From: Megalobrama amblycephala
Lineage: Eukaryota; Chordata; Actinopteri; Cypriniformes; Xenocyprididae
Assembly: GCF_018812025.1 (NCBI RefSeq)
Contig: NC_063045.1
Coordinates: 59,448,383-59,512,382 of the forward strand
Reading direction: 5' to 3'
DNA length: 64,000 nucleotides
Positions 44-64,000 of this stretch are shown piece after piece (the stretch's first letter is position 1; every line of letters starts with the position of its first letter). The notes under the pieces were generated by a model. That model was not told the origin of the DNA. It worked only from the letters and a program-made list of their open reading frames with translations, and ran no database searches. Position numbers and translations under genes: made by a program.

Positions 44-33727
<33,684 letters not shown>

Positions 33728-34539: not shown

Positions 34540-36720
34540 CACAGAAACTGTTTTCGGTTAATTGCATTTCAGGGGCTGTTTTTACACAACATCGTTTTCA
34601 TCTAAAAATGGAAAACTTTTTTATGCATTTTGACCGTTTGTTTACACGACAGCAGTGTTTTGGGGGGCTGAAAACACAAACTTTTGAAAACAGGATTCAA
34701 TACTGTTATCATCTCCATGTAAACAACAAAAATGTGAATTTGTGAAAATGGCGATGTTATTTGCATGTATATTATGTGTTCAGTCTATAGGCGCATAGTG
34801 TTTCTTTACAAAGTGACATCGCCAACTACTATGGAGTTTCTTTTGTGTCTTTTCAAACAAACATATTGTGTTTGAGAGTAAAACTAATTATTTTGTAATT
34901 AAAAAATATATATATTGCAAAAAAAGTCGTCTTAAGGCTCAAAAATAAAGAAGTTGATAACAGAATTATTTGCAGTGCGTGTAAATCTTTGAAAACCTTT
35001 ATTTTTCCTTGTGCACTTCGAGAACTTTTCATCCCAAACCCACACATTTTGCTCTCTTTTCTGCTGTCTTTTTTGCGGGTCAAAATATTTTGCTTGCGAG
35101 GTGAATAGGTTTGCAAGCTGAAAAGTTTTGCAAGTTGAAAAGTTTTGCGAATTGAAAAGTTTTGTTTGCACGTGAAGCTGTAGCTCAGTGGGCGGTCTCT
35201 ACCAACCAGGATGAAAGGCATTTTTCTATTGGTCACCCTCGATTGAAGTGACAAGTTGGCCACGCCCACTACGGTTTCCAGCCTCTGCTGCTGCCACCGA
35301 GAAGATAAGAGAAGCGAGAATGGCGAGCAACAGGTCGTTTACTGGGTAAGATAACTAATATCATAAACGCAGTGACAAGTGAACTGAATGATTCTCTCTT
35401 CTTATGCTGCCGTTGACTAGATTTTATTAACGTTAGCCAACACTAGCAGCCAGAGCCACCATTAGTAACGTTTGCCGTGTGGTCGATGTCCAATGTTGCT
35501 AGCTGAGCTGACATTCATAATCACATTTGGATTTTCTCAGCGTAAAGGTTGAGAGGCACTATTTTCGATGTTCGTAGAGTTGGGCCTAGGTTCTGGGGTA
35601 AAAATATCCGCTTGTTAACTCGTGACGTAAGGAACGCCGTTTCTGGGTCCAAGCCCCGGCTAGTTTGACTTGAGAATGCCATCTCCGCGGCCGTTTATGA
35701 GCGCTATTTATTCATAATAAACATTTATCATTTTAAAGTTACACGTTTAAAATACTTACAGTCTATACAACAGTCTCCATGGTCACAGCGTCACAGACAT
35801 TAATATTTTAACGATTTATAAAAGATGAATCACTGTCTGGCAATCTGGGATTTTGGTATGGAGATAAAGGTTATGATTATAATTTTTTTTTTTGTAGTAT
35901 TACACCACATTATGTCAACCTTTACTACAGACTGGTCTAGCCAACGTTAAGTATTTAAATGGGACAGCATAAGAAGAGAGAATCATTCAGTTCACTTGTC
36001 ACTGCGTTTATGATATTAAATTAGTTATCTTACCCAGTAAACGACCTGTTGCTCGCCATTCTCGCTTCTCTTATCTTCTCGGTGGCAGCAGCAGAGGCTG
36101 GAAACTGTAGTGGGCGTGGCCAACTTGTCACTTCAATCGAGGGTGACCAATAGAAAAATGCCTTTCATCCTGGTTGGTAGAGACCGCCCACTGAGCTACA
36201 GCTTCACGTGCAAACAAAACTTTTCAATTCGCAAAACTTTTCAACTTGCAAAACTTTTCAGCTTGCAAACCTATTCACCTCGCAAGCAAAATATTTTGAC
36301 CCGCAAAAAAGACAGCAGAAAAGAGAGCAAAATGTGTGGGTTTGGGATGAAAAGTTCTCGAAGTGCACAAGGAAAAATAAAGGTTTTCAAAGATTTACAC
36401 GCACTGCAAATAATTCTGTTATCAACTTCTTTATTTTTGAGCCTTAAGAAGACTTTTTTTGCAATATATATATTTTTTAATTACAAAATAATTAGTTTTA
36501 CTCTCAAACACAATATGTTTGTTTGAGTAAAAAAGACACAAAAGAAACTCCATAAACTACTGGCCTGGTAGCAGAATACAGCAATGTTAGTCATTTTTGT
36601 GGATCTGTGTGAAGGGGGATCATTTTGACAATGTTGTCATTTGTACGTGAAGAGTACAAAGGAAAAAAGTTTCTAAGTACATTGTTGTTGTGTAAACTTA
36701 CCCTCAATGTCGAATAAAGT
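34540..36720. mobile_element. Older DNA element interrupted by the fold-back element
   Basis: ACACAACATCGTTTTCATCT and TTTTGACCGTTTGTTTACAC on the left, and GTTGTCATTTGTACGTGAAG on the right, are phrases I associate with one fish repeat. Removing 34831-36554 rejoins the two sides across a single AACTACT. Outer limits are approximate. Confidence 0.5.
34831..36554. mobile_element. Fold-back DNA element with about 580-bp inverted arms
   Basis: The left arm, 34831-35409, and right arm, 35965-36554, are near-identical inverted copies around a spacer of about 555 bp. Tips are ATGGAGTTTCTTTTGTGTC and the inverse. AACTACT flanks both sides (34824-34830 and 36555-36561), a target duplication of 7 bp, or 8 with one mismatch, the size used by hAT-type elements. 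No transposase was found. A 138-residue open frame is mirrored in both arms with one residue changed, which reflects arm identity and not a gene. Confidence 0.9.
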
Positions 36721-44689: not shown

Positions 44690-44941
44690 ATAAGGGGCAA
44701 AACTCTAGCTGTGACAATCGGTTTATGCTTAAGCCTTTGACCTGGTCCTTACTCCAATAAAGGAAAACAAGTTAACGTGTTTACATGAACATGATCCACC
44801 CCCTGCAAATTTATACATACTTTTGTCAGTCAAACACTTTAATACACATTTCTGGGTCCATTTGGTGAAATATTATGTTTTTTTTTAAATATATACAGAT
44901 AAACTACTTGCTGACCAGTAAAGGACCTGATTGAGAGCATA
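44690..44941 (+). promoter_or_regulatory. Conserved upstream region of secreted-protein gene copy 1
   Basis: This stretch is about 94% or more alike in both gene copies (second copy about 62157-62406), apart from a few short indels. A TTTATAC phrase near 44810, about 130 bp before the ATG, is kept in both and could be a weak TATA element. Confidence 0.4.
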
Positions 44942-45092
44942 ATGATTTCAACTTTGAAGCTCATGCTGGCTTTGGCCACAGTTTTGGGGGTTGTAGTAAC
45001 CACCGTAAACTCCATCCCCCCTAAGAGTGAGATACACCAATACACAAACCTCACACACACATACACCAAGAGTGAGGAACACTAATATAATG

Positions 45093-45146
<54 letters not shown>

Positions 45147-48100
45147 CTAAACTAAAGACATTACCTACCTTTTCTCCTAAATCACAATCTACAATGTCTG
45201 TTTTATTCATCCATTAAAATAGGATATACAGCGTTGTTCTATGCACATATGAACTAAAGAATCAGTACCTAATAAATTACTGTGTGAATGTTTGCATGTC
45301 ACCATTGTGTTTCCTGACAGAACAGAATGTGAATCAGAATAATGCTGCTTTGGAGAATCAGCTCAGAACCGCTGCCGAGCAAGCACTACAAGCCATTGGT
45401 TCTACTCGCACGGCGACTGCTTCTTCTGCGCTAGCAGACCGGGGCCAGCATGTCTTCAACAACAACCTCCTTAAGTTGCACCGAAGCGTTCTGGAGGGCA
45501 TGCTGAATTTTTTGGGGGCCTCTGAGCAGCTGAATAACCTGGAGCAGTACCTCAGAATCCCCCTCAGCCAACTTCAACGAGAGGCAATTAGCACGACAAT
45601 GGTGGTCCACTTCAGGTCAGTGTGTGTGTGGTCAGGTGGGATGAGTGCTACAGTGTGTATAAACTTTAGTGTGTAAGTGTATTAGGTCTGGAAGATAAAG
45701 TCAAGTCAAGTCAAGTCACCTTTATTTATATAGTGCTTTTTACAATGCAGATTGTGTCAAAGCAGCTTTACATTGATAACTGGTATATAATTTTGGCTGC
45801 ACAGCAGCTCTTAAAGAATAGTGTCAATGCAGCAAATCAAAGCACTGTTGAATAAATGTCAAGAATACTGTTGAATATCAAATGTGAAGTCAAATGTCAA
45901 GTGTCCCCAACTAAGCAAGCCAAAGGCGACAGCGGCAAGGAACCCAAACTCCAACAGGTGACATCAGGTGGCAAACAAGTGGCAAATAGGTGTTAAAATG
46001 GAGAAAAAAAAAACCTTGGGAGAAACCAGGCTTAGTCGGGGGGCCAGTTCTCCTCTGGCGAACAGTGCTTTGTTACGAATCAGGTAGCTATCATAAGTCT
46101 GATAGGATCGCAACAATCAAAGTATTTATTTCAGTTCCATCCAGTTGAGGATCGTATTCATCACGCTGGTATGGACGGTTTGTTGAGGAACTGTGCTACT
46201 GGCTGTCGTGTTGATGAGGCCTTCACAATGGATGATCTAGTCGACTCAATCTCTGCTGATACTATGTGTTGTGGTCGTGTCAAGGCGCAGGTCCTTGGTC
46301 TCAGCTGGATACGGCCCGGATCCGGTTGACAATGGTAAACCTCGGGATAAACAGAAAAACTAATATTAGCGTAGATGCCATTCTTTTTCTGATGTAACGA
46401 GTACATCTGGTGTTATAGGAAGTGTTCCCGGTTCCGGCTGACCTAATTTATGCAGCCTAATAATCCTTTAACGGATTTGAAAATATAAATTTATAATGTG
46501 TTATGTGTATGCCAGGTTAAAGAGATGCGTTTAACTGACAGAGTGTGTCTGCATCCCGAACAATGCTAGGAAGATTGTTCCAGAGTTTGGGTGCCAAATA
46601 GGAGAAGGATCTACTGCATGCGGTTGATTTTGATATTCTAGGTTTTTATTATTAGCTGGCCTGAATTCTGAGATCGCAATAAACGTGAAGGGTTATAATG
46701 ATTTAAGAGCTCGCTCAGGTACTGGGGAGCTAAACCATTTAGTGCTTTGTAAGTAATTAGCAAGATTTTAAAATCTATACAGTGTTTAACAGGTAGCCAA
46801 TGCAATGACGACAGAACTGGGCTAATATGGTCATAGTTCCTAGTTGTAGTAAGAACTCTAGCTGCTGCATTTTGTACAAGCTGTAGTTTATTTATCAAGC
46901 GGGAGGAACAACCACCCAGTGGAGCGTTACAGTAATCTAGCCTTGAGGTCATGAACGCATGAACTAACTGTTCTGCATTTGTCATTGAGAACATATGTCG
47001 TAGTTTAGATATATTTTTAAGATGGAAGAATGTGGTTTTACATATGCTAGTAACATGGCCTTCAAATGAAAGATTGGTATCAAAGAGCACACCCAGGTTC
47101 CTACCTGACAACGAAGACTTAACAGAGCAGCCATCAAGTGTTAGACAGTATTCTAGGTTATTACTTGAAGACGTTTCTGGTCCAAAAATTAGAATCTCTG
47201 TTTTTTCTGAATTTAGTAGTAGGAAATTACTGGTCATCCAGTTTTTTATATCAGCTATACATTCTGTTAATTTAGCGAATTGGTAAGTTTCGTCAGGGCG
47301 TGAAGAAATATAGAGCTGAGTATCATCAGCGTAACAATGAAAACTAATGCCATGCTTCCTAATGATATCTCCCAAGGGTAACATGTACAGAGTGAAAAGC
47401 AACGGTCCTAGTACTGAGCCTTGCGGTACTCCATTTTTAACTTGTGATCGATATGACATCTCATCGTTTACTACTACAAACTGATAACGGTCAGATAAGT
47501 ATGATTTGAACCATGCCAATGCAATTCCATTAATGCCAACATAGTTTTCGAGTCTATTTAGAAGAATATTGGGATCAATAGTGTCAAATGCAGCACTAAG
47601 ATCCAGTAACACTAATAGAGAGATACAACCACGATCTGATGATGGTACGGTCTAAATCCTGACTGGAAATCCTCACAGATACTATTTCTTTCTAAAAACA
47701 AACATAGTTGTGATTAAACTACCTTTTCTAGTATTTTTGACAGAAAAGTGAGATTTGAAATTGGCCTGTAATTGACTAATTCTCTAGGATCAAGTTGTGG
47801 TTTTTTAATAAGAGGTTTAATAACAGCCAGCTTAAAAGTTTTTGGTACGTATCCTAGTGATAAAGATGAATGAACTATATTAAGAAGAGGATCTATGACC
47901 TCTGGAAGCATCTCTTTCAATAGCTTAGTCGGTATAGGGTCTAACATACATGTGGATGATTTTGATGATTTAACAAGTTTAGACAATTCTTCCTCTCCTA
48001 AAGCAGAAAATGAATTGAATTTTTCTTCAGGGACACTACAATGTACTGTCTGACACGGTACTGTAGTAGACAGTTGCATGGTTATAATTTTTTCTCTAAT

Positions 48101-51100
48101 ATTATCAATTTTGCAAGTAAAGAAGTTAATAAAGTCATTACTGCTATGCTCTTTGGAAACATCAGAAGTTGAAGCTTTATTTCTTGTTAATTTAGCCACT
48201 GTATCAAATAAATACCTAGGGTTGTGTTTATTTTCTTCTAAAAGTTTTGAAAAATAGGCAGATCTAGCAGTTTTTAAGGCCTTTCTGTACTCAATCATTC
48301 TCTCCACGAAATGCGAAATACTTCTAGTTTTGTTTTCTTCCAGCTGCGCTCCATTTTTCTAGCTGTTGTTTTTAGGGCCCGAGTGTGCTTATTGTACCAT
48401 GGCGTTGGATTAATTTCCTTAATTTTTTTTAAGCGCAAAGGAGCAACTGAGTCTAATGTGCTGGAAAAGACAGAGGCAATAGTTTCTGTTGCAACATCGA
48501 GGTCTTCTAAGCTGTCTGGTATGCTAAGGCGATGAAACTGATCAGGAAGATTATTTATAAAGCGATCTTTAGTGGTAGTAGTGATTGTTCTACCATATTT
48601 ATGGCAGGGAGGCAGTTTAGCCTCTTTGACTAAATGTAATATACACGAGACTAGATAATGATCTGAGATGTCGTCACTCTGCTGCAGAATTTCAACGGCA
48701 TCAATATCGATTCCATGTGACAATATTAGATCTAAAGTATGATTACGACAATGAGTGGGTCCCGACACGTGTTGTCTAACACCAGTAGAGTTTAGAATGT
48801 CTGTAAATGCCAATCCTAATGAGTCTTTTTTATTATCTACATGGATATTAAAATCACCAACAACAAGGACTTTATCTGCAGCTAGTACTAATTCTGATAG
48901 AAAATCGGCAAATTTTTTGATAAAGTCTGTATGGTGTCCTGGTGTCCTGGTATAAATACTTATCACGATAAAAAATTAAGATTTAATGTCACAGCTCTTA
49001 CTCATGCAGACCATATCTAGTACATTGCACTGTCAGTCACAATACATGGAGCAAAAACATCTAAGCCAACACTTGTTAGTGGGGGTCAGTGGTAGGGTTG
49101 GGTACCATTCACATTTTAATCAGTATCGGTACCTGAAATTCAGTGCCGGTAACCAACTGTACCTTTTTTTCTTTACTTTACTCTCTGAGTAAAAAAAAAC
49201 ATTTATTTCAGTAAAAATTCAGTAAACATTTTGTTATATATTTATAAATTTTACATACTAGACAAAATAAATCTCTACAGTCTCCAGCCTGGAAATCACG
49301 TAACATCACAGTGTCTCCAGTCCAAGGTATAGTGTGAACACACTGTTATGTGTGCGGTGTAGTAGAATTCAAATATCACGAAAGACCATATCTCGTGCTG
49401 TTCTGTATCATATATGGACTGGAGTAAGCATGTTTCAGTTATTATGGACATATTGCAAAAAGCATTGACTGCATCTAGTTTTCTGAATTGTAACCACACT
49501 TCAGAACTTTAACCTGTGTGATGTGTCTGAAGGTGCAGGGGTAACGTCGAATGGTCTCTCTCTTGCTTTAACGTACCTTACTCTTGCTCGCAGATGCATT
49601 CTCAGGTACTGAAATTTGTTTGTGGGTTCCATGAAAATTACGGCATGTGACACACTCATGAATGACACTGAAGTCTGAACCTCTAGCCACCAGCTGGCCA
49701 AAAACCAGCAGCACCCTCCATGAAATGTCTTCCTTGGTGTTATACTTTCCACAGCAAAATTAGGATTTATAGTGGAAACAGACCTGATCCAAATGGATCC
49801 TTGGAAGGGTCAAGCCCTGACTGATTGGCTCGTTCTCTCATGTGTCAGGGACATCAGTGGTTTCTCAGTTTTGCTCATTTCCATAGGAACTTTAGTTCTG
49901 TGGACGCTCTGCTTTCTGCACTCACCAAGGGAGGAAGAGTAAAGTTCTTCTGGACCCATGAAGCTGAAGCTGCCTTTTCTGAGCTCAAGTGTCTATTCAT
50001 ATCTGTCCCTATCCTAACTTTCCCAGAACCTGACAAACAATTGTTGGTAAAGTTACATAAGAATCTCGAATACATCCAACAGGCCAAATGCTTTTAAAAT
50101 CCACTGCATCTGCGCTGAAACTCGCCGCATGTTGCAATGCTACTTCGGCTCGTGATTAGAATCTAAAAAATCTGTCTTCATAGTGCTGTATGTACACCAT
50201 CAGCGTGCTCATTTATAATAAAACAAGTTTGACAAGATAGACAGCTGTACAACATCTAATGCTATGAGCAGCCATTCAATATTCATTGCTAATTTACCCA
50301 CACCCCTCCAACCTAATCAGTCAGTTTTTCTTATTTTTAGCCCACAGAAGTTCCAAAATGTAATCTCCAGCCGATCCCCCCCTTAATCAACAATAATAAT
50401 TCAATAATACAATAAAACATTGCTTTCCAAACAACCTGTCTCACAGACAAGCTTATCAATTACCCATTCAATCATCTAGCCACAACAGTGATTTATTTAT
50501 TTATTTATTTATATTTAAATATGTATCACTTCACTGCTGCAGTGATTGCAGTGATTTCTCCCTTTGTCAAAAATAATCTTTAGGTGTGTTTGTTTTTGTT
50601 TTTTGTCTCTGTAGTTCAGATGAGTTCTATGTGGATTATAATGCAGGTGTGTACGGAGCGTACGTGGAGAAGCTCCGACATGAACTTGTGGAATACCTCA
50701 AGGCCGATACATCTGACAACGATGATGAGAGAAACAGAACCAGGACGCAGGTGCAGTTCATCACCGGTGAGATGGTGAACCGTAATGTGATTGTGGACCC
50801 GATGGCCCGCGATCACTGGGTTAAGAAGGACCAAAACCGTTTGCAACAGTACAATGATATCAGAGCTGCATTGATGAATATGTTCCAGAACATCCTGGAG
50901 GACTTCGAAAAAGTGTCAGAAAGGATCAAACACTATTACGAGAGTGGAAAGTGGAACAGGTTAGACAGCTGGCTCCTGGATTACATTCATGTACAAACAA
51001 TAAATTTAAAAATATAAAAAAAGTAAAAAAGTGAATCATTGACAGACCCAAAATACCTTCTGATGAGTTCAGTAGAGCTCCTCTTAGTCCATTAAATCAT

Positions 51101-51167
51101 GTAGTGGATGACCTTCGAAGTAAATGACCTTTTCTCATGTAACTCTTGTTTTCTTTTCAACAGATAG
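44942..51167 (+). CDS. Unrecognised secreted, cysteine-free 242-residue protein, copy 1
   Basis: Four exons with consistent phases: 44942-45026, 45321-45615, 50615-50959, 51164-51167. Exon 1 encodes a clear signal peptide (MISTLKLMLALATVLG then VVVTTVNS), with cleavage likely just after VNS. Exon 2 (KQNVNQNNAALENQLRTAAE onward) and exon 3 (SSDEFYVDYNAGVYGAYVEK onward) look largely helical and charged, with no cysteine anywhere in the protein. There is one N-glycosylation site, NRT at residue 167, after an acidic run DTSDNDDER. The C-terminus is HYYESGKWNR. Splice sites are standard: GTGAGA and GTCAGT donors, CCTGACAG and CTCTGTAG acceptors. Intron 2 holds a 3.3 kb LINE. I considered four-helix cytokines such as interferon gamma, but neither exon phases nor motifs fit. 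The function is unknown. Confidence 0.82.
45095..45144. repeat. (TG)n microsatellite in intron 1 of copy 1
   Basis: TG repeat of about 50 bp, present at the same place in copy 2 (62561-62606). Confidence 0.95.
45321..45615 (+). CDS. Exon 2 of secreted protein copy 1 (fast-evolving)
   Basis: Encodes 97 whole codons between two split codons (phase 1 in, phase 2 out). It aligns to exon 2 of copy 2 over its whole length with 57 of 92 residues identical by eye and five codons net difference, while the flanking introns differ at only about 5% of bases. Conserved anchors are QNVNQNNA, RGQHVF and MVVHF. Confidence 0.85.
46638..47612 (-). pseudogene. LINE reverse transcriptase, fragment
   Basis: Reads [40 protein letters not shown] and the catalytic FHCYADDTQLY. 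The first two are the fingers and palm motifs and YADD the active site. About 30 residues upstream are deleted near 47620-47700, and the C-terminus is cut by a frameshift near 46640. Confidence 0.9.
47714..48966 (-). pseudogene. LINE endonuclease C-terminal part and linker
   Basis: 48966-48295 reads VLVVGDFNIHVDN and SDDISDHYLVSCIL, the GDFN and SDH motifs of AP endonucleases; 48307-47714 continues in another frame to NYRPISNLTFLSKILEKVV at the start of the reverse transcriptase. The N-terminal endonuclease is missing and a frameshift lies near 48300. Confidence 0.88.
49083..49250. repeat. Shared repeat phrase in intron 2 of both copies
   Basis: GGTTGGGTACCATTCACATT and ATCGGTACCTGAAATTC occur here and at 63239-63300, so they predate the duplication. 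The form resembles a fish MITE tip; class unclear. Confidence 0.5.
49820..50096 (+). pseudogene. Ty3/gypsy pol fragment (reverse transcriptase to RNase H junction)
   Basis: The phrases FLSFAHFHRNFSSVDALLSA and LTKGGRVKFFWTHEAEAAFS followed by PILTFPEPDKQLLVK are the standard connection between reverse transcriptase and RNase H in fish gypsy elements. It is an isolated fragment with no LTR nearby. It lies in intron 2 of the secreted-protein gene. Confidence 0.85.
50615..50959 (+). CDS. Exon 3 of secreted protein copy 1
   Basis: Adds 114 whole codons and completes a serine codon across the junction. It contains the acidic run, the NRT glycosylation site and a long C-terminal amphipathic stretch from about YNDIRAALMNMFQNILEDFE. 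It ends AACAG|GTTAGA. The partner exon of copy 2 is beyond the right edge. Confidence 0.83.
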
Positions 51168-52065
51168 ACACACATCAAGAAATCTATCTTCTGACCCAGA
51201 GTGATCACTGTGAGGAGCTCTTCTTTCTGAAATCAATAAGCAATGCTTTGGTTTTACCCACATTCAGTTTTAAATCACATGAACTAATAATAATAATTTA
51301 AACTCTCTTTGTAGGCCAGATCATTGCCTTGATTAATTAAACCCAACAGGGCTCTATCATCTAAAAACTCGATGCCATGGGACTCTTTTTATAGTTAAAT
51401 AGGAATAGTTGACCCAAAAATGAGAATCTGTTGATACTTTACTCACTCTCAGACCATTCAAGATTTACAAACCTCATTTCCACAGACGAGGGACATTAGA
51501 GAAATTACAATGCACAAAAGAAAAGATTGTATGTTTGTAATATATGATGTTTTTTCTTTGTGTGTGTTTTGTGTTGAAGCCAAAGACAAATTTAAACTCA
51601 CAGAACTGAGCCTTCAATTACAATTTCCCAAATATCCCAACTTTTCTGGAAATGGGGTTTGCAGAATATGTTTTGTTTGATGTATTGAAGCATTTCTTGT
51701 GGAGGATCTAAGGATTCTCAATAGCCTACTTGATTTATACCATTTATCATTTAATCATTTCATTATTATTATTATTAATTGATGTAATTTTCTGTTTTCA
51801 TATTTTATCATACTTAATTCCTTTCTATTATTGTCTTTAATCTTATGATTGTGTGGTTTGAAGGGATGTTTGTCTTCATGAGAAAGAGAAAAGAAAATGT
51901 CTCCATTTCAAGGTTTTTAACATCACTGGACGATGATGTGAAGAAGTCATTTTTCATTGTTTTTCCCTTAATATAATAACACTTGTTGGATTTGTGATGG
52001 TCAGATGAAGTCTAAGCATTAAAACATACGCAACTAAGATTATTCAATAAAGTCTGCTCTTTTTT
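51164..52065 (+). other. Terminal exon: stop codon and 3' UTR of copy 1
   Basis: The acceptor TTTTCAACAG is followed by A-TAG. The A completes the last arginine codon and TAG stops translation at 51165-51167, so the exon is almost all untranslated. It runs to the poly(A) signal near 52046. Confidence 0.6.
52046..52051 (+). terminator. Poly(A) signal AATAAA of secreted-protein gene copy 1
   Basis: AATAAA followed within 20 bases by a GT- and T-rich stretch (GTCTGCTCTTTTTTC). It is the first good signal after the stop codon that is not inside an obvious repeat. Confidence 0.55.
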
Positions 52066-52322
52066 CATCACTTCATCTCCTTCTGTTCTTCTCTGGATTT
52101 CCCAGTTAAACTCTCAGGCTGATAGAAGACTTCAGCGTTCAGGGTCACATCCAATATATTTGATATTTCTGACATGAAGATCCATCCGATCTAACATTTT
52201 GGCATGATCTAACAGGGGTAAATTGAGCCTAGGGAGAGGATAAGTTGAGCCACATGGGGGTAAATTGTGCAATTCATTATGCTGAAGTAAAATTGAACAT
52301 TTTACTTGGCCATCTATATAAA

Positions 52323-52325
<3 letters not shown>

Positions 52326-52367
<42 letters not shown>
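52326..52367. repeat. (AC)n microsatellite
   Basis: AC repeat of about 42 bp downstream of copy 1. Confidence 0.95.
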
Positions 52368-52369
<2 letters not shown>

Positions 52370-53335
52370 TGGCACTATAGTGGCATCATCATTTATGTAA
52401 GTGCACTGTATTAAAAAAATAAACAAATTCTGAATAATGTATTTACAAAGAGAAATAGACTCATTTGTCCAGTCAGCATTATTTATTCTGGATCAGAACA
52501 TGAGCTGAAGGCACAATGTATTTTTTGTTAGCATGACAATTAATGCATATTTAAGGTCACACATTTGGAATGCATTCTGATCACTGATACAGAAACACAA
52601 AATAAAATCCTTTCCTGGCAGAACATGGGTCAGCTATACCATACTGTTTACAAAATCCAATAAACACTATATCAAGATTTGGCTGCAACGTGGTATCTTC
52701 GATATATGGCATTACAGTATATCTAAAACATGTCTTTCAACTTAATCAAGAAACACAGGCACAAATGATAGTTTTGACAGTCAGACCTGTCTGTAAATTC
52801 AAGACAGTTACTCTCCCATAATCACACATGATGTGCGGTGAAGGCAAAATACACATTATTTACTATGAATGAGGTACTTCTAACTTCTAAAAGTGTTGCA
52901 TACTACAAGTTAAGACACTCTAGTTCTCTGGTCTGCTGTGAAATACAAGCCGCCAGAGTATTAAAATACATTTGAAAAATTAACATTCAGTTTTTACAAT
53001 GTCTGTTACATGTCAGTCTGCAGTAAAGGCCCGTTCACACCAAGAATGATAACTATAAAGATGATAAAGGTATAGATTTAAAAATCATTCTAAATATAAA
53101 AGAATAGCATGGAGCCCACACAACAGCTATAACGATAATGATATAGAGAAACGATATCATTGGGATTTCCAGCTGTTAAACGATAAAACACTGACAGCCA
53201 ATCAGAATCCACTCATGCATTTAATATGGTGAAGAAGTTAATCACTGAGATCCAGAAAAATCCACCCATTTGACAAGTCAAATCCCCTTTTCAATACAAT
53301 AAAAAATGACATATATGGAAAACAATCTCCAGAAC
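52370..53335. other. Intergenic stretch with a MITE-like piece
   Basis: Mostly unrecognised. From 53026, AAGGCCCGTTCACACCAAGA with repeated ACGATAA-type phrases looks like the end of a fish hAT-type MITE. No gene. Confidence 0.45.
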
Positions 53336-53337
53336 CT

Positions 53338-53609
53338 GCAGAGGACCTATGGCTAATCAACTTTTGGTCAGAACCAATACCAGCCCCCGACCAGGGTCCA
53401 GTGCAGGCCTGGTCCCCCAAGCTCCCGACTCCACCCCGGAGGCTTCACACCTGCCTGCACCTCTACTCTCACCCTCCTGTAAAGACACCAGGGTGCCCAC
53501 CTTCCCACCCCTTGAACTTTTGTTTACTCTATGCCCTCCTCCCCAGCCACCCTGCCTCTGGGCTATCTTCTTACAGCGCAAGGATGTGCCTTTTTGGGAG
53601 GGGGCGTAC
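53338..53609 (+). mobile_element. 3' end of the internal region of an LTR element, family C
   Basis: A proline-rich reading frame (LFTLCPPPQPPCLWAIFLQR) ends in a purine run GGGAGGGGGCG directly before the LTR, the polypurine tract that primes plus-strand synthesis. The same closing phrase type (LQRKDVPFWEG) is seen before the 3' LTRs of elements A and B. The 5' remainder is lost. Confidence 0.75.
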
Positions 53610-53950
53610 TGTCACGTTTAGAGTATGTTTTTGATCAGTTTTCATGCTTTTTTTCTGTCTTCAGTTTCTTAGTCAGTTTTCTAGTTTGTTAATTGTTTCA
53701 GTTCTCCTTGTGTGGTTACTGATTAATTAGTGTCTTCAGTTCAAGTGTGTCTTGTTTAAGTCTCATTAACTCCTCTGTCTGCTGTGTATTTAAGCCTTGA
53801 GTTTCAGTATGTTCTTTGTCTAGCTTTACATGGTATTTGTAGTTTAATTTCCTGTTGATTTTCTCTGTTCCTTGTTCAGATTACTCCATTAAAAGTTCTT
53901 GACGATATCTCCTTCAGTGTGAGTTTCAATACTCCAACTCCAGTGTGACA
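53610..53950 (+). mobile_element. 3' LTR, family C
   Basis: 341 bp from TGTCACGTTTAG to CCAGTGTGACA, with TGTATTTAAG and ATTAAAAG signals. It is followed by GGCTTGCAGTCC, the same flank as the solo LTR at 37973-39901, so both derive from one insertion. Confidence 0.88.
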
Positions 53951-53955
53951 GGCTT

Positions 53956-54690
53956 GCAGTCCTGGCATTTAATGCGATTGGTACGGGTTTAAATCCGCCT
54001 TCTGCTGTGCTTGCATTTATTTTGAATAAAAATGATAATGTTCTAAAAGTAGAAATAAACTGCGAACAAGTGATTAATAATACTGCGAATAAACTGTGAA
54101 TAAAGTGTTTATTGTGTAGGGTTAGGGGAAGGTGTAGGCAAGGTTTTTATTCTTCCAATAAAGCAGTATCCATTTAATAATTATATAAGTATAATAATTT
54201 ACACTCTATGATATTGCATCATGTTAATGTACAAAAATACTGAGGTGCAAATAGTATGTCGATATAAAGTATAGATAGCATCTAATTACTATTTACTCTT
54301 ATTGCAAAGAACTGATACTTTTACATGGTTTAAATAGAATCTACCTCAGAATCTCACCTAGTGTAAACAGCATATCGCTAAGAAAATGCTGCTATTGTCA
54401 CTTTGTGTAAATAGTCGCTGCCTTATTATTGTCCCTATAGTTCACATTAGAGTATTTCACATTAGGGTCACATAACACTTTTAAGTAAGTAGCAGTGGCT
54501 TGACTTGAAAAGACTTTATCACCTCTGCTTAAAAACATGCAATATAATCCTGTTTACATTAAATAAGCCTGCTCCTGAGCAGATTTGAACTTATGAACCT
54601 GTTGCTATGACAGCAAGTCCAAGATGAGCGTTGAAGAACCAAACAATCCAAGATCATGCCAAATTGCATTAATAAAATCCAGCTGAGTTA
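53956..54690. repeat. Duplicated upstream segment, copy 2
   Basis: Matches 39907-40610 in order. No gene. Confidence 0.8.
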
Positions 54691-54764
54691 GCGACGTATG
54701 ATACTCAGTTTAATACAGTCAGACAAGTTCAACATGCAATGTGCTGAAATGATATGAATGAGAA

Positions 54765-55175
54765 TGTAACTGTGATCAGCTAACTCTTTAGTATTATGAC
54801 AATAAAATCTTCTTTCAGTTCTACTGGACTTACCATACGCACCAGGAGCATAAGAAAATTGATCTTTTGTGCCATACAATTGTAATATGTAATATGCCGA
54901 GAGTCATGGGGGGTGGGGGGGGGGGCGGGGTAGTTAGTTTTACGTTCTGTATTTGCTGATAATCACCTAGAGGGGGTTTGACCACTCGTTTATTTTCTGT
55001 TTGGCTAGTTTTATTATCTGGTTTCCAGCCTGACAGAGCTAGTGGTTCTAGCTGGTCTGTCAGATGAGAATAACTTACCAATTCCAGTTAGAACTGCTTC
55101 CTGTTTACCAAGTTTGAAGTATTTGCTTAATATTTGCTTAAAAAAACACCTTTTATCAATAGAATTCAACCAGGC
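54765..55175. repeat. Duplicated upstream segment, copy 2, second part
   Basis: Matches 43071-43500. It contains a G-rich run at 54908-54930. The scrambled LINE fragments found between the two parts in copy 1 are absent here. Confidence 0.75.
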
Positions 55176-55870
55176 ATAATGTTTTGTGTTCTTTTGTATT
55201 GATTTTTGTTGTATTGTACAGCACTTTGAGTCAACCATGAGTTGTGTTGAAAGTGCTTTACAATAAAAAAAAAAAAAGGCAATAATCTTACACTGGTTTT
55301 ACATGGGGGGGGGGCACTTTTTACTCGCCTCCTCGCTGTGCTTCTCCTCACTTCACTTTCTGCCTCCTCGACTTGCAGTCAGACGATACGACTGTAGCTG
55401 ACAAGAGGTAACTACCAGCTTATTATTGCTGTTAATAAATTGAATACTATGTGAATTTGTAGTTGAATGAGGGCATCCATTTTTCAGATTCAATTTACTT
55501 GGCAGATTTCATTAATAATGTTAACTGCAAAATAATGCTTGCTGATCTCTTCTAATTTGGCCAGGGGTACAGGAACTATCTTCACAGGTTTATAAACACA
55601 ATGCAATTTTTATAAATTCAGTAATATTTAAATCAGTAATGAATTTCACTGTTAATTGTATTGTGCTACAAACCTTTGTTCTTATTTAAATGTTTTAATT
55701 TTAAGTTTTCATTCTTAAAATTATAGTCTATTATTTCATTTCTCTTGGATCTTGACTGGCGCTCATCAGGGTCTGAAATTAGATTGTGGCAAAAATGGCA
55801 TCAAAATCAGTTCCTGAATCAAGTTACTTATTAGTTTGATACTTATTGACTCCCCTTTAAATGACGCAAC
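55176..55870. other. Intergenic stretch, nothing recognised
   Basis: Contains an A run at 55265-55278 and a G run at 55305-55314. No gene or repeat family recognised. Confidence 0.45.
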
Positions 55871-57190
55871 GCTTCCTTAAAGGATTAGTTCACTTCTGAA
55901 TTAAAATTTCCTGTTAATTTTACCCCCATGTCATCCGAGATGTTATGTCTTTCTTTCTTCAGTCAAAAAGAAATTAAGGTTTTTGAGGGGGGAAAAAGTC
56001 CAGGATTTTTCTCCATATAGTGGACTTCAACAGTTACCAACAGGTTGAAGGTCCAAATGTCAGTTTCAGTGCAGCTTCAAAGAGCTCTACATGATCCCAG
56101 ACGAGGAATAAGAGTCTTATCTAGAGAAACGTTCGGTCATTTAAAAAAAAATAAAAAATAAAATTACATACTTTTTAACCACAAATGCTCATCTTGCACT
56201 GCTCTGAGATGCTCCACGCATTACGTAATCACGTTGGAAAGGTCACGTGACATAGGTTAAAGTACACATCAAGTGTTCACAAAGCAAACGTGCAAAGACT
56301 AAGTCAAATGCCTTTTACAAAAAAAAAAGGTAAAACAACGATGTCGGATGATTTTGAAGCTGGAGGAGAAAATGAGCTGGAGTTTTTAGCCCTACCGGGG
56401 TACTTCTGGCTACATCATGTGTGACCTTTCCAACATGATTGCGTAATGCGTGGCGCATCACAGAGCAGTGCAATTTTTTATTTTTTTTTATTTTTAGAAA
56501 ATAAACAATTGTTTCACTACTTATATTACTCGTCTGAGATCATGTAGAGCTCTTTGAAGCTGCACTGAAACTGACATTTGGACCTTCGACCCGTTGAACC
56601 CCAGTGAAGTCCACTATATGGAGAAAAATCCTGGAATGTTTTCCTCAAAAACCTTCATTTCTTTTTGACTGAAGAAAGAAAGACAAAAGACACGTCTGCT
56701 CCTGTCAGACTACACTCCCCATAATCCTCCCTGCCAGTCACGTTCACTCCACACCAATCACCTGTTGCCACATACAGCCATGCACACACTCCTCACTAAT
56801 CACCATACCCAGCTGCAGCTCATTACCTGGACAATAAAGGACTCTCATTCACACCATCTGATCGCAAAGTCTTGTTAACACTGTTACAATTCCGAGCGTT
56901 ATATCCTGTTTGCCTGTCTGTTACCATTCCTGCCTGTTACCTGTTATTGACCCGTTGCTGCCTGTCCTGACCTTTGCCTTGTCTGCTGTTCTGTGAATCA
57001 TATCTGCCTGCCTCGATCTACTGCCTGTACCCTGACTACGACTCTGCCTGTCCCTTGCTGTTCCTATTTGCTCCTGATTGACCCTGCCTGTATGACCACG
57101 CTCATCTTTAATAAAACGCTGCATTTGGATCCCCTGCTTGAGTCTCCCTGCTTTACAGAAGACTTCGCCACACTAGATCCAGCAGCTTCC

Positions 57191-57382
57191 ATGAGCATTT
57201 CCAGCCTCAGCATGGACCCAGCAATGCGTCTCGTCAGCCTTCGTCAAGGTAACAGTACCCTCGAGGCACATATTCAGAAGTTCCTGGATGTTGCTTATTT
57301 ATCTGATCTGCCGGACTGTGCCCTCATTGACCTTTTTGCTTATGGATTAAACGAACCACTAAAGAGCAGTTTACTCACCAGT
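57191..57382 (+). pseudogene. gag-like reading frame of element B, split by element A
   Basis: The start MSISSLSMDPAMRLVSLRQG is followed by AHIQKFLDVAYLSDLPDCAL, the shape of a short capsid-like gag domain (E/H-x-F-x-D/E-x-A-Y-L-x-D-L/W-P-D) that element A also has. The frame continues after element A at 59592 (VEFLDFALLRVGSLFTVG) to a stop near 59905, so the insertion interrupts a frame that was open. Confidence 0.7.
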
Positions 57383-57717
57383 TGTTACAGATCCCTTGTT
57401 CCCCTGGACTCCATTTCCCATGATCCTCCTGTTTCGTCACCTGCACTCACTTCCCTCGTCAGCTCCTCATCATCACTCATCACCTGCACCTGGACTTGAT
57501 TATCATCACTCCCTTTATATGGCACTCACTCCCTGCACTCCTTGTCCGTTCTCTGTTGTGTTATGTGTATGTTTGGTGATTCCCTGCATTGGTTTATTAA
57601 AGTACCTTATACTATTGTGGAAATCTGTATCTGCCTCATCTCTACACCAGCAACCGTAACAGAAGAACGGACCAAAAACTGACCGGATTTCCACAGAAAG
57701 AGAAAAAAAAAAGAAAT

Positions 57718-58044
57718 ATGGATGCTTCCTTCATCTCCCGGGCTCCAGCTTCTCCCATGCCTTCCACGATCTTGACTGCCGGCGATCGCCTCATCGGGCT
57801 TCTTCAGGTTGGTCGTTCACTGGAGAGGTATGTGGAGGAGTTCATTGAGCTGGCTTATCTGACTGACTGGCCCGATGCTAATTTAATCGCCCTGTTTTTG
57901 GACGGTCTGGATGACAACACTCTCCGTTTCCATGAACCAGATTATCGTTTCTCCTTAAGCGAAACTATCAATTTTATTTTGTTTTTGAATAATTCCAAAT
58001 TCTATGTGGACAAGGTTCAGGATGAGTGTTGGTCTCCAGTCTGA
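57718..58044 (+). CDS. gag-like protein of element A
   Basis: 108 codons starting MDASFISRAPASPMPSTILT, 56 bases after the 5' LTR. The core RSLERYVEEFIELAYLTDWP followed by LFLDGLDDNTLRF resembles the capsid-like gag domain of fish Ty3/gypsy-type elements. It ends at TGA 58042-58044, yet the same frame stays open to 59079, so the stop may be a recent mutation or a read-through site. Confidence 0.65.
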   Translation: MDASFISRAPASPMPSTILTAGDRLIGLLQVGRSLERYVEEFIELAYLTDWPDANLIALFLDGLDDNTLRFHEPDYRFSLSETINFILFLNNSKFYVDKVQDECWSPV

Positions 58045-59230
58045 CGGCCGGGCCAGTTAGTCAGCCTCCGTATTCCTCCGCTTACCCCTCCGGTGAACTT
58101 CCTTCCTGTCCTACGCTGGGTCCACACTCTCCCGTTGGGTCCAGAAGGCGGAGGAAGAGGAAAAATCCTGCCGCTGAGCCCTCTCCAGCCTCCACCGAGC
58201 CCGCTCCCGTTCCAACGGGAATTTTTAATTATATTTGAGGGAATGAACTCCGAGCCCGCTCCAGCCCTCTCCGAGCCCTCTCCGAGCCCTCTCCGAGCAC
58301 GCTCCAGCCCTCTCCGAGCACGCTCCAGCCCTCTCCGAGCACGCTCCAACCCTCTCCGAGCACGCTCCAGGCCTCTCCGAGCCCTCTCCGAGCACGCTCC
58401 AGCCCTCTCCGAGTACGCTCCAGCCCTCTCTGAGCACGCTCCAGTGGCAGAAGGGATTCTGGTGGAGTATGAGGGGATGAACTGGCCCTCAGCTCCAGCC
58501 GCCGCCGAGCCAGCCACTCCAGCCGCCGCCGAGCCATCCGCTCCTGCCGCCGCCGAGCCAGCCGCTTCAGCCCGTCACGAGCACGCTCCTATGATGAACT
58601 TTGTTATAAAAGTCTCCAGCCCTAAGACTGTTTACCCTCCCTGCCTCCCTCTCCCACCTCCTTCCATTTGTGTCTATACTGCACCTCCACCTCAAGCCCC
58701 CTCGCCCAGATCTCCACCTCGGACCTCTGGGCGATTACCTACACCCTGGCTCCAACCTCCCTCGACTCCACCATGGTCCATCAGCCACCAGTCTCACCAG
58801 TCTCCATCCTGCCCCCGTTCACACCTTGGTCACTCGTCAGCCTGCCTTCACTTCTGGACTGCACTCCTCCGTCTCCGCTCCGTCCCTCCGTCCCTCCGTT
58901 CCAGTTGGCTTCCTCACTCCCCCTGGTGTTCACTTTGTTGTATGTCATCTGTCTTCAACTGCGGCCTTCTGGAGCCCTGGCTGCGCTTCTCCCGCCGGTC
59001 CTTCAGCGCCTCCTGGGCTCGACGGCATCAAGGCCTCGGTAAAGGCCCTGGACCCGCCATGGCCGCCTTCGGCTCCTGACCCTCCATGGCCGTCCACGGC
59101 TCCTGACCCTCCATGGCAGCCCGCTTCACCTGACCCTCCATGGCTGCCCGCTTCACCTGACCCGCCATGGTTCTTGGACCTGCCCTGGAGACCTCCACTC
59201 CAGTCTACTCCTCCCCCTGCTCCGGCTTGA
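58045..59230 (+). pseudogene. Repeat-rich second frame of element A
   Basis: The open frame in phase with gag runs to 59079. It holds a 21-bp repeat (58245-58440, residues LRARSSP and variants) and AAAEP repeats (58495-58565). From about 58670 the better frame shifts by one base and carries PDPPWLPAS repeats up to 59230, just before the 3' LTR. Element B has the same closing PDPPWLP repeats, so this part is shared between the families. Function unknown. Confidence 0.55.
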
Positions 59231-59887
59231 GGTCTCCAGGGCGCCCACCCCCCTCCCAGTTGTTCCATCTACAGCGCGAGGACGCGCCTACCGGGAGGGG
59301 GAGGTACTGTTACAGATCCCTTGTTCCCCTGGACTCCATTTCCCATGATCCTCCTGTTTCGTCACCTGCACTCACTTCCCTCGTCAGCTCCTCATCATCA
59401 CTCATCACCTGCACCTGGACTTGATTATCATCACTCCCTTTATATGGCACTCACTCCCTGCACTCCTTGTCCGTTCTCTGTTGTGTTATGTGTATGTTTG
59501 GTGATTCCCTGCATTGGTTTATTAAAGTACCTTATACTATTGTGGAAATCCGTATCTGCCTCATCTCTACACCAGCAACCGTAACACCAGTGGTCCCCGA
59601 GGGTCGTTTGTGGAATTTTTGGACTTTGCCCTGCTTAGAGTTGGTTCACTTTTTACTGTGGGTGTCGCGGAGAAATGCGACACCACAGAGAATCACGTAA
59701 TGGCTGCCGCTCAGGAGAGCACTCACAAAATGGCGGCCACTACAACATCACATCACGTCTTCACTGATCGCCCAGAGCCACGTCCTGTCTCCGTTGATCG
59801 CCCAGAGCCACGTCCTGTCTCCGCTGATCGCCCAGAGCCACGTCACGTTTCTGGATCTGTCCAAGGGCGCAGAGACTACGTTCCAGT

Positions 59888-60880
59888 GTGGCTGATCCTC
59901 CGCTGACTTCAGCTCGAGCGGCTGGCATTCTGAAGCCTCAGCCGGCCGCTTCGCACTCAAGCCCGGAGGCCGCTTCGCACTCAAGCTCGTCGGAAGCTTC
60001 GCACTCAAGTTCGTCTGTTGCAACGCTCTCAAGTTCGTCTGTTGCAACGCTCTCAAGTTCGTCGGCTGCAACGCTCTCAAGTTCGCCGGTTGCTATGGAC
60101 TCATGTTCGCCGATTGCAACGCACTCAAGTTCGCCGGTTGCTATGGACTCATGTTCGCCGGTTGCAACGCAGTCAAGTTTGCCGGTTGCAACGCACTCAA
60201 GCGTCCTGGACGCAATGGACAAAATGACTGCTTTGCCAGTGCCCACGGGCAAGATGGCCACCCCTGCGGTGCTCAAGGACGTAGGAGTCGTTCCAGCCGT
60301 TGAGTCCGCTCCAGAGTCCGCTCCAGCCAGTGCGTCCGTTCCTGAATCCGCTTCAGCCCGTGAGCTCGCTGCAGTGCCCACCGAGGAGGTGAACACAGAG
60401 CCGCCACCTCGTCCACGAAAGAGGAGGTGGAGGAGGAAGAAGGCTCCTTTCATCTTTCAGGGCTCTGAGGCCTTCCCAGAGCCCGTTGTGGGCCCGGAGA
60501 CCACGCTAGAGGTCTCTTCAGCGCCGCCCAAGCTCCTAGCCCTGTCAGCACCGCCCAGGCTCCTTGCCCTGCCGGCACCACCTGAGCTCCTCGCTTTGCC
60601 GGCGCCACCCAAGCGTCTTGCCTTGCCGACATCGTCCAAGCGCCTTGCCCTGTCGGCGCCACCTGAACTCCTTGCCCTGCCTGCGCCGCCCAGGCTCCTA
60701 GCCCTGCCCGCGCCATCCAAGCTCTTTGCTCTACCAGCACCACCTGAGCTCCTTGCCCTGCTGGCGTCACCCAAGCGCCATGCTTTGCCGGCGCCATTTG
60801 AACTCCTTGCCTGTGAACCCGCCACGGCTCCCATTGAATTCCCCAAGAACTTTTTTGGGGGGGGGGGGCAGTATACCTGA
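59888..60880 (+). pseudogene. Repeat-rich second frame of element B, first part
   Basis: Open for 330 codons in a different frame from the gag-like part. Serine-rich units (SVATLSSS, about 24 bp each) lie at about 59940-60215. A basic patch RPRKRRWRRKKAPF lies near 60415-60450, and about eleven 27-bp units (LLALPAPPK and variants) at about 60532-60815. It ends at a G run (60857-60867), where one slipped base would rejoin it to the next frame. Confidence 0.55.
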
Positions 60881-61289
60881 GGGTGGGGAGCTTGTGGGTG
60901 GGGACCTTGCCCGACCACTGCCGTCATGGGCCTTTGAACTGTTATGGCCACCTTTGGACTGCAATTTAGTATGGCCACTAATGGACTCTGACCCGCTGGG
61001 GTCATCTATGTACTCTGTCCTGACGTGGCTGCTCAAACCATCTGACCTGCCGTGGCTGCCCAAGCCATCTGACCTGCCGCGGTTGCCCAAGCCACCTGAC
61101 CTGCCGTGGGTACCCAAGCCACCTGACCTACCGTGGTTACCCAAGCCTCCTGACCCGCCGTGGCTTCCTGACATTCCGGACTCGCCATGGATGCCCGTGG
61201 CACCTGACCCGCCATGGCTGCCCGTGGCACCTGACCCGCCATGGCTGCCCGTGGCACCTGACCCGCCATGGCTGCCCGTGGGTACCTGA
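60870..61289 (+). pseudogene. Repeat-rich second frame of element B, last part
   Basis: Nine-residue units KPSDLPWLP, KPPDLPWLP and VAPDPPWLP repeat from about 61036 to 61285 (27 bp each), ending LPVGT and a stop 127 bp before the 3' LTR. The last three units are nearly identical in DNA. Confidence 0.55.
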
Positions 61290-61921
61290 CCCGCCATGGC
61301 TGCCCTGGAACTTGCATTGGAGACCCTGTTCCTGTCTGAGCTCCAATGCACCCACCCCCCCTCCCTATTTGTGCCATCTACGCCGCGAGGACGCACCTTC
61401 CGGGAGGGGGGCGTTATGTCACGATCACTGTCTGCTCCTGTCAGACTACACTCCCCATAATCCTCCCTGCCAGTCACATGTTCACTCCACACCAATCACC
61501 TGTTGCCACATACAGCCATGCACACACTCCTCACTAATCACCACAGCCAGCTGCAGCGCATTACCTGGACTCTCATTCACACCATCTGATCTCGAAGTCT
61601 TGTTAACACTGTTACAATTCCGAGCGTTATATCCTGTTTGCCTGTCTGTTACCATTCCTGCCTGTTACCTGTTATTGACCTGTTGCTGCCTGTCCTGACC
61701 TTTGCCTTGTCTGCTGTTCTGTGAATCATATCTGCCTGCCTCGATCTACTGCCTGTACCCTGACTACGACTCTGCCTGTCCCTTGCTGTTCCTATTTGCT
61801 CCTGATTGACCCTGCCTGTATGACCACGCTCATCTTTAATAAAACGCTGCATTTGGATCCCCTGCCTGAGTCTCCCTGCTTTACACAAACATATTGGACG
61901 ACATGGGGGTGAATAAATTAT

Positions 61922-62030
61922 AGAATAAACCAGCTCAAACCAGCTCATGACCAGCTAAGGACCAGCATAAACCAGCTCAAACCAGCTTCCATGCTTCAAA
62001 ACATCCTATCCAGCATATGCTGGTTTTTTC
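61922..62030. repeat. Small hairpin repeat with ACCAGC units
   Basis: Repeated AAACCAGCTC phrases followed by CCAGCATATGCTGG, a perfect 14-bp palindrome. This is a common fish MITE-like repeat. Confidence 0.6.
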
Positions 62031-62156
62031 AACAGGATGGATACGCTTAAATCCACAGTAAGGATGCGTTCCTGTCATATATCACACATGTGCACTTCAA
62101 TAAGCCGACAGAACGCAGGTTAATGTGTTTACATGCTGGCTGAAATCGGAGTAAGG

Positions 62157-62406
62157 GGCAAAAATCTAGCTGTGACGATTGGTTTATGCTTAAGCCTTTG
62201 ACCTGGTCCTTAAAGGAAAACAAGTTAACGTGTTTACATGAACATGACCCACCCCCTCCCCCAGACCCCCTGCAAATTTATACATACTTTTGTCAGTCAA
62301 ACACTTTAATACACATTTCTGGGTCCATTTGGTGAAATATTATGTTTGTTTTTTTTTTGGATACAGATAAACTTGCTGACTAGTAAAGGACCTGATTGAG
62401 ACCATA
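62157..62406 (+). promoter_or_regulatory. Conserved upstream region of secreted-protein gene copy 2
   Basis: Near-identical to 44690-44941, with a 9-bp loss after CTGGTCCTT and a small CCCTCCCCCAGAC-type gain. It keeps the TTTATAC phrase at about 62279. Confidence 0.4.
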
Positions 62407-62558
62407 ATGACTCCTATTCTGAAGCTCATGCTGGCTTTGGCCACAGTTTTGGGGGTTCTAGTAACCACCGTAAACTCCATCCCCCCCTAAGAGTGAGATA
62501 CACCAATACACAAACCTCACACACACACACACCAAGAGTGAGGAACACTAATATAATG

Positions 62559-62605
<47 letters not shown>

Positions 62606-63059
62606 TCTAAACTAAATGCATCACCTACCTTTTCTCCTAAATCACAATCTACAATGTCTGTTTTATCCATCCATGAAATAGGATACACAGTTTTGTTCTA
62701 TGCACACATGATCTAAAGAATCAGTACCTAATAAATTACTGTGTGAATGTTTGCATGTCACCACTGTGTTTCCTGACAGAACAGAATGTGAATCAGAATA
62801 ACGCTTTTTTGAAGGATCAGCTCAAAAACGCTGCCCAGCAAGCACTAAACGCCATTCAATCTACTCGCACGCCGACTGCTTCTCATGAGCTAGCAGCCCG
62901 GGGCCAGCATGTCTTCAGCAATGGAATCCTTACGTTCCACCGCAACGTTCTGGAAGACCTGGTGGGCAATGAACAGGTGGATAACCTGGTGAAGGACTCA
63001 ATAATCCCCCTTGGCCAAACTGAAAAAACTGCAATTAGTGAAATGGTGGTCCACTTCAG
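62407..63059 (+). pseudogene. Secreted protein, tandem copy 2, exons 1-2, frame broken in exon 1
   Basis: Exon 1 is 62407-62492 and exon 2 is 62780-63059, with the same splice sites and phases as copy 1. The signal peptide starts MTPILKLMLALATVLGVL. The C run before TAAGAGTGAG has seven bases here against six in copy 1, so translation reads into TAA at 62488-62490, after 27 residues. Exon 2 itself is fully open for 92 codons (QNVNQNNAFLKDQLKNAAQQ onward, ending MVVHF), which argues against long decay. Either the extra C is an error, or it is a recent null allele. Exon 3 would fall beyond 64000. Confidence 0.75.
62561..62606. repeat. (TG)n microsatellite in intron 1 of copy 2
   Basis: Same position as the repeat at 45095-45144. 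Confidence 0.95.
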
Positions 63060-63360
63060 GTCAGTGTGTGTGTGCTCAGGTGGGATGAGTGCTACAGGGT
63101 GTAGACACTTTAGTGTGTAAGATTTAATGTCACAGCTCTTACACTCATGCAGACCACATCTAGTACATTGCGCTGTCAGTCACAATACATGGACCAAAAA
63201 CATCTAAGCCAACACTTGTTAGTGGGGGTCAGTGGTAGGGTTGGGTACCATTCACATTTTAACCGGTACAGCTACCAGTATCGGTACCTGAAATTCGGTG
63301 CTGGTACCCAACGGTAGCTTTTTCCTGTACTTTACTCTCTGTGTAATAACAAAAACATGT

Positions 63361-63725
63361 AGTGGTTTCATGTTGTTGTTATGCATTTTCTCGTATCCAT
63401 CTGGCTGAGGAACTTCAGTACAGCCGTGCTGAACTCCTCGAACCCAACACTGGGGGACACATGTCGTTCAACAGTGGATAGAGACAGAGGAGGAGACACT
63501 GCGAGCGGCGGCAGAAAAGAGGCAAGCGGGCTGGCGTGCTAACTAGGCTAAAGGCTAACCTGTTTAAGCCCCCGCTCCATACCATCTTCCTCTCTAATGC
63601 CCGATCAATCCGCAGTAAGGTGGACGAGATTCGACTGAGACTGACAACACAGAGGAATATAGCCAACTGTAGCAGCATGATGGAAATCATGGAAATCTGG
63701 CTGGATTTAGGGATTGTGATAGGGA
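63361..63725 (+). mobile_element. Start of a non-LTR retrotransposon (AP endonuclease N-terminus)
   Basis: The frame around 63565-63690 reads KPPLHTIFLSNARSIRSKVD and EIRLRLTTQRNI, the opening of AP-endonuclease domains in fish LINEs, then decays. It sits in intron 2 of copy 2, at a different place from the LINE in copy 1, so it is an independent insertion. Confidence 0.7.
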
Positions 63726-64000
63726 CTGTGTGTTTGTGTTTATGTGTGTTTATTTATGTAAAATTTTTCAGATTTAGGACAGTTTTGTTGATTTTATTTG
63801 CCAATTTATATAAAAATGCTCTCTGTTGCAGTCACACACATGTGTGTGTGTGTGTGTGTGTGTGTATGAGTTAGAAAGTTCGTTCCACTTTGTGTTTATG
63901 GTCTAGGACCAGACCTTTATGGAAATGTAGAACATTTCAGATTTATTCTGGATTTTTTTTTTTTTTCATCAATTCAATTTTTTCATCTTCCCATTCATTT
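63726..64000. other. Intron 2 of copy 2, right edge
   Basis: Contains a short GT microsatellite at 63840-63865 and a T run at 63953-63966. No exon 3 is seen before the window ends. Confidence 0.5.

Follow-up and report, generated by a model that had tools for sequence, protein, structure and literature searches.

Divergence concentrated in one exon of a tandem gene pair in Megalobrama amblycephala: selection or an older exon?

Why should a coding exon differ more between two tandem gene copies than the introns on either side of it? The question was raised by a stretch of 64,000 nucleotides from Megalobrama amblycephala (contig NC_063045.1, positions 59,448,383 to 59,512,382; hereafter the 64-kb window), in which two copies of one gene, A and B, lie in tandem about 17 kb apart. 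In copy A, which like copy B runs on the forward strand, exon 1 (44942-45026) holds the start codon and a segment that, judged by inspection, looks like a signal peptide, and it ends at a phase-1 donor (AAGA/GTGAGA, with the slash at the exon boundary). It is preceded by an upstream and 5' untranslated block (44694-44941) common to both copies. The divergent exon, exon 2 (45321-45615, 295 bp), is entered in phase 1 and left in phase 2, with CCTGACAG/AAC as acceptor and TTCAG/GTCAGT as donor. A third exon at 50615-51017 (133 codons and a stop), missed by the first-pass annotation, was predicted behind the acceptor TCTCTGTAG, and its phase is compatible with that of exon 2. When 49241-52060 was shuffled 1000 times, 2.5% of the shuffles contained a stop-free run of at least 146 codons; since a run of such length is only moderately unlikely by chance, exon 3 is treated as predicted. 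Spliced together, exons 1-3 (the third as predicted) give an open frame of 260 codons with zero cysteines, about half of the protein being contributed by exon 3, and the product is probably secreted.

Copy B repeats the first two of these exons. Its exon 1 (62407-62492) has one extra C at 62481-62487, where seven C stand against six in copy A, and the extra base leads to a TAA stop (62488-62490) ahead of the donor. Its exon 2 (62780-63059) keeps an open frame, with gaps of 12 bp and 3 bp relative to copy A that are both in frame. The extra C may be a recent frameshift, an assembly error in the homopolymer, or a base bypassed by splicing from a weaker donor; judged by eye, splicing from position 62470 to an acceptor five bases inside exon 2 would keep the frame and leave the sequence unaltered. 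Searching the 64-kb window by tblastn revealed no exon 3 for copy B and no further copies of exon 2 or exon 3. The similarity of the two copies ends in intron 2 of copy B at about 63361, and a further insertion beyond this point may separate copy B from its own exon 3. Within 63361-64000, a frame at 63536-63874 resembles a LINE endonuclease by eye.

The exon 2 boundaries had been placed correctly by the first-pass annotation in both copies, and the AG/GT splice sites match. Between these boundaries 58 of the 280 aligned bases differ (20.7%). The two copies share a block at about 44694-45676 that resumes beyond a LINE insertion at about 48980, and four non-coding stretches could be compared: the upstream stretch including the 5' untranslated part (11/237 differ), intron 1 (12/241, with the microsatellite at 45095-45146 left out), the start of intron 2 (4/61), and intron 2 past the LINE insertion (12/209), the last being cut at 49205/63343, the point where the similarity fades. 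The four were mutually homogeneous (chi-square p=0.91) and were pooled to 39/748, or 5.2%, as against the claimed figure of about 5%. The divergence of exon 2 was thus about four times that of the surrounding non-coding DNA (Fisher p=1.5e-12), and the claim that a coding segment outpaces its own introns several-fold held. The non-coding gaps measured 14, 8, 3, 1 and 1 bases (microsatellite left out) and, past the LINE, 2, 12 and 1 (end gaps left out).

A change-point scan that was supplied with no exon positions located the elevated segment at 45343-45597 on the forward strand (58/240 differ), entirely within exon 2, with 2dlnL of 62.5 (the highest value among 200 permutations was 22.4); the first 22 and the last 18 bases of the exon contain zero differences. 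A second, weaker cluster at 44887-44954 (12/65 differ; p=0.02, 300 permutations) spans T-rich non-coding upstream sequence and codons 2-5 of exon 1, so the clustering is not strictly exon-limited. Exon 1 differs at 6/85 bases overall, five of them falling within the nine bases 44946-44954 (codons 2-5, ISTL in copy A and TPIL in copy B), and the remainder of exon 1 shows one base difference besides the extra C.

The explanation to which we give somewhat better than even credence is that selection drove apart this single exon of the two tandem copies. The simplest counts say little about it. About 40 non-synonymous against 5 synonymous changes had been claimed, while the Nei-Gojobori method gave 48.2:9.8 over 210.8 and 65.2 sites, about twice as many synonymous changes as had been claimed. 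The claimed 57 identical residues out of 92 became 56/92 over whole aligned codons, and 57 was obtained only if the split last codon was read through (the read-through identity is 58.16% of 98 columns). Random substitution of copy A exon 2 left 55.1 residues identical on average, and 56 were observed; because most random changes are non-synonymous, the raw ratio is of little help. By Nei-Gojobori, dN was 0.272 and dS 0.168 (ratio 1.62, p=0.13), and dN did not exceed dS in 8.7% of 2000 bootstrap replicates. Maximum likelihood gave an omega of 2.6 with omega=1 rejected (p=0.020), the joint fit with non-coding sites again gave a free omega of 2.6 (omega=1 rejected, p=0.018), and the parametric bootstrap against omega=1 returned 2/150; fixed values of 0.5 and lower were rejected by maximum likelihood at p<=2e-5. 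The p-values of these selection tests and of the synonymous-rate tests below are per test, uncorrected for the number of tests. Diversifying selection as proposed by the first-pass annotation is therefore favoured by maximum likelihood (p=0.018-0.020), but with two copies it stays unproven (Nei-Gojobori p=0.13). From two copies compared without an outgroup, positive selection on exon 2 is the favoured conclusion.

The signal depends in part on codons that changed more than once. Exon 2 has 43 changed codons, 32 with a single difference and 11 with two or three. When the 11 were removed, omega was 1.37 and not significant, a step that is itself biased against fast-changing codons; the single-change codons split 25:7 non-synonymous to synonymous, about the neutral share (p=1.0). 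If exon 2 simply mutated faster, or by multi-nucleotide events, in the absence of selection, such multiply changed codons together with the omega signal would be expected. However, an ordinary model at the same divergence gave a mean of 10.5 of them in 150 simulations, which the observed 11 match, and only 7/58 differences stand in CpG context. Besides, a mutation hot spot restricted to an exon would be unusual, and we regard mutation without selection as very improbable, the least credible of the explanations considered. Weak/strong base differences numbered 18 versus 30 in a check for GC-biased change; assigning them a direction would take an outgroup.

The extra C in copy B suggests another account, namely that copy B is a pseudogene by its exon 1 frameshift, with a stop ahead of the donor, and that its exon 2 drifts freely under relaxed constraint. 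The residue identity of exon 2 does equal the unconstrained expectation. Free drift, however, caps at the neutral level of about 5%, and 21% was observed; furthermore, exon 2 of copy B is without stops and its gaps are in frame only. When 58 random changes were placed in copy A, the frame stayed open in 17% of 20,000 runs. Relaxed constraint could account for the present state of copy B, but not for the excess in exon 2, and as an explanation of the latter it seems unlikely to us.

A stronger competitor is an exon that is older than its surroundings. Conversion may have homogenised the introns and flanks while sparing exon 2, or a tract from a distant paralogue may have replaced about 255 bp, and in both cases omega would be near 1. 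The first-pass annotation had itself named old exons between homogenised introns as the case against selection, and the synonymous clock gave it partial backing: exon 2 dS was 0.12-0.17 depending on the method, and it was raised in two of four tests, though not at 4-fold sites. It exceeded the non-coding divergence by Nei-Gojobori (p=0.003), as did the synonymous rate in unchanged codons (7/41.6 sites, p=0.008); by joint maximum likelihood the excess was marginal (p=0.09), and 4-fold sites differed at 2/30, near the non-coding rate (p=0.66). In the joint fits, for which the non-coding sites were 27/539 differing (the post-LINE stretch left out), equal rates everywhere were rejected (2dlnL 50.9, p=1e-12). 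A single clock for synonymous and non-coding sites gave an omega of 5.6 (lnL -694.08). An older exon clock with omega=1 gave a dS of 0.25 (lnL -695.44), which is only 1.36 lnL below clock-plus-selection at an equal number of parameters. The free model gave a dS of 0.12 and an omega of 2.6 (lnL -692.65), and the single clock was rejected only at p=0.09.

An older or imported exon would also suit the position of the hot segment, which begins 22 bases and stops 18 bases inside exon 2, and primate red/green opsins are described as having a one-exon divergence peak between homogenised introns (PMC3924837). On the other side, omega=1 was rejected at p=0.018, the 4-fold sites are not elevated, and tblastn detected no donor copy within the 64-kb window. 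The non-coding divergence is even on both flanks of exon 2 (p=0.91) and free of patchiness, while gene conversion often leaves divergence patchy. A chance tract must in addition coincide almost exactly with the exon, and selection would still be needed to maintain the difference. We consider the older or imported exon a real possibility, though one holding clearly less than half of our confidence. On balance the evidence leans towards selection, which may have acted on a segment that is older in part.

If selection is indeed responsible, the history of the locus might have run as follows. The starting point would be the tandem duplication, with copies about 17 kb apart, of a gene whose product is small, lacks cysteine and is probably both secreted and helical. 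After the duplication, to which we would date most of the changes, selection for amino-acid change, presumably positive, would have driven most of exon 2 apart, the exon that would encode the N-terminal part of the mature protein, whilst the ends of exon 2, the introns and the upstream DNA would have stayed at the neutral divergence of about 5%. Older sequence retained in or imported into exon 2 may supply part of the excess. Copy B would probably have been functional until the exon 1 frameshift, provided that the extra base is real. Most likely, going by the pattern of change alone, the surface encoded by exon 2 would touch a fast-changing partner such as a pathogen, a gamete or another ligand.

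Divergence confined to an exon is a known pattern, since it has been seen in semen-coagulum genes, three-finger toxins and opsins. For example, in the REST genes of mammals (semenogelin and the seminal-vesicle secretory proteins), the exon for the signal peptide is described as evolving much more slowly than exon 2, the introns and flanks remaining recognisable (PMC7556508, PMC3209443). As portrayed there, these genes resemble the present pair in encoding a secreted protein, in their fast exon 2 and in its phase-1 start. However, the third exon of REST genes is given as non-coding, whereas exon 3 of copy A is predicted to be coding and to continue the frame of exon 2 for 133 codons, and no sequence relation is claimed. 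In snake three-finger toxins, the accelerated segment switch in exons (ASSET) was reported for genes with three exons and conserved introns, the divergence lying in exon segments of about 4-53 bp, the switched ones sharing 12.5-50% identity (PMC2474615). The likeness to that description extends to the exon-confined divergence, the conserved introns and the three exons (the third predicted here). The difference is that we observed one long segment, about 76% identical, with mostly single-base changes and without a cysteine scaffold; instead of short segments swapped for unrelated sequence, 58/240 bases differ and 32/43 changed codons carry a single difference. The primate red/green opsins form a tandem pair about 24 kb apart, in which the divergence peak of exon 5 lies between low-divergence introns and was attributed to selection restricting gene conversion (PMC3924837). 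High exon divergence amid low-divergence introns of a tandem pair is shared with A and B. However, according to that source, other species show that the opsin introns were converted, whereas A and B were compared without an outgroup; moreover, the A/B peak covers nearly the whole exon.

The identity of the protein was sought by family and structure searches. No Pfam family passed the cut-off for the exon pieces or for the spliced copy A protein, for which the best hit was Peptidase_S46 (E=0.004, 16.3 bits versus a cut-off of 22), and PDB sequences yielded no match to the spliced copy A protein (best E=0.63). Structure models were all helix at low confidence, with a mean pLDDT of 57.3 for exon 3 alone and 46.0 for exon 2 from the two-sequence alignment. 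A conserved-core reading of exon 2 found no support: hydrophobic positions were kept between A and B at 24/27, no more than expected by chance (p=0.17), so that a fold constraint on exon 2 is not demonstrated. Among viral contigs, the patterns of copy A exon 3 and exon 2 gave 12 and 18 matches, and among prokaryote genome contigs the A/B exon 2 alignment pattern gave 236, with no relative confirmed in either set. A narrow literature search found nothing, under those terms, on pi4ka-linked tandem genes or on exons outpacing introns, and the gene itself may be undescribed. We put forward with considerable doubt the broader proposal of an unnamed, probably teleost, family of cysteine-free helical secreted proteins whose exon 2 is under strong positive selection (omega about 5.6 when timed by the introns). 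Its locus would be a tandem one, evolving by birth and death close to a pi4ka-like gene, and its exon 2 a fish counterpart of the semen-coagulum and toxin exons. Should the pattern be confirmed with more copies, it would offer a clean natural example of adaptive protein change timed by a gene's own introns, and a gene that lacks a family match in Pfam and PDB might lead to a host-pathogen or reproductive factor that has so far escaped notice. Telling selection from conversion at this locus would also test the general caution about dN/dS in tandem genes.

The LINE-type insertion in intron 2 of copy A (45678-48980, minus strand) contains a reverse transcriptase-like frame at 46638-47612 (RVT_1, E=2.5e-23); judged by eye, both of its edges carry TAAG and one end an AGTCA-like repeat. 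In copy B the corresponding site, near 63118-63121, is empty. Directly upstream of copy B, 56762-61888 looks like a retrotransposon, judging from its layout: direct repeats at 56762-57160 and 61500-61888 are 95.5% identical and about 4.7 kb apart (they may reach further left, at the query edge), the frame at 57718-58044 between them is gag-like (Retrotrans_gag, E=0.0014, below the cut-off), and the interval contains many tandem repeats. Farther away, two minus-strand frames match the N-terminal region of PI4-kinase, one at 10644-10958 (E=1.6e-10) and one at 23221-23823 (E=4.9e-5, just under the cut-off), and they probably belong to a pi4ka gene. The region 34853-36526 resembles a large inverted repeat and may be a mobile element; its two 138-codon frames in opposite orientation (34853-35269 and 36110-36526) differ by one residue by eye, and tandem repeats with a 17-bp unit lie within them, at 35094-35164 and 36215-36285.
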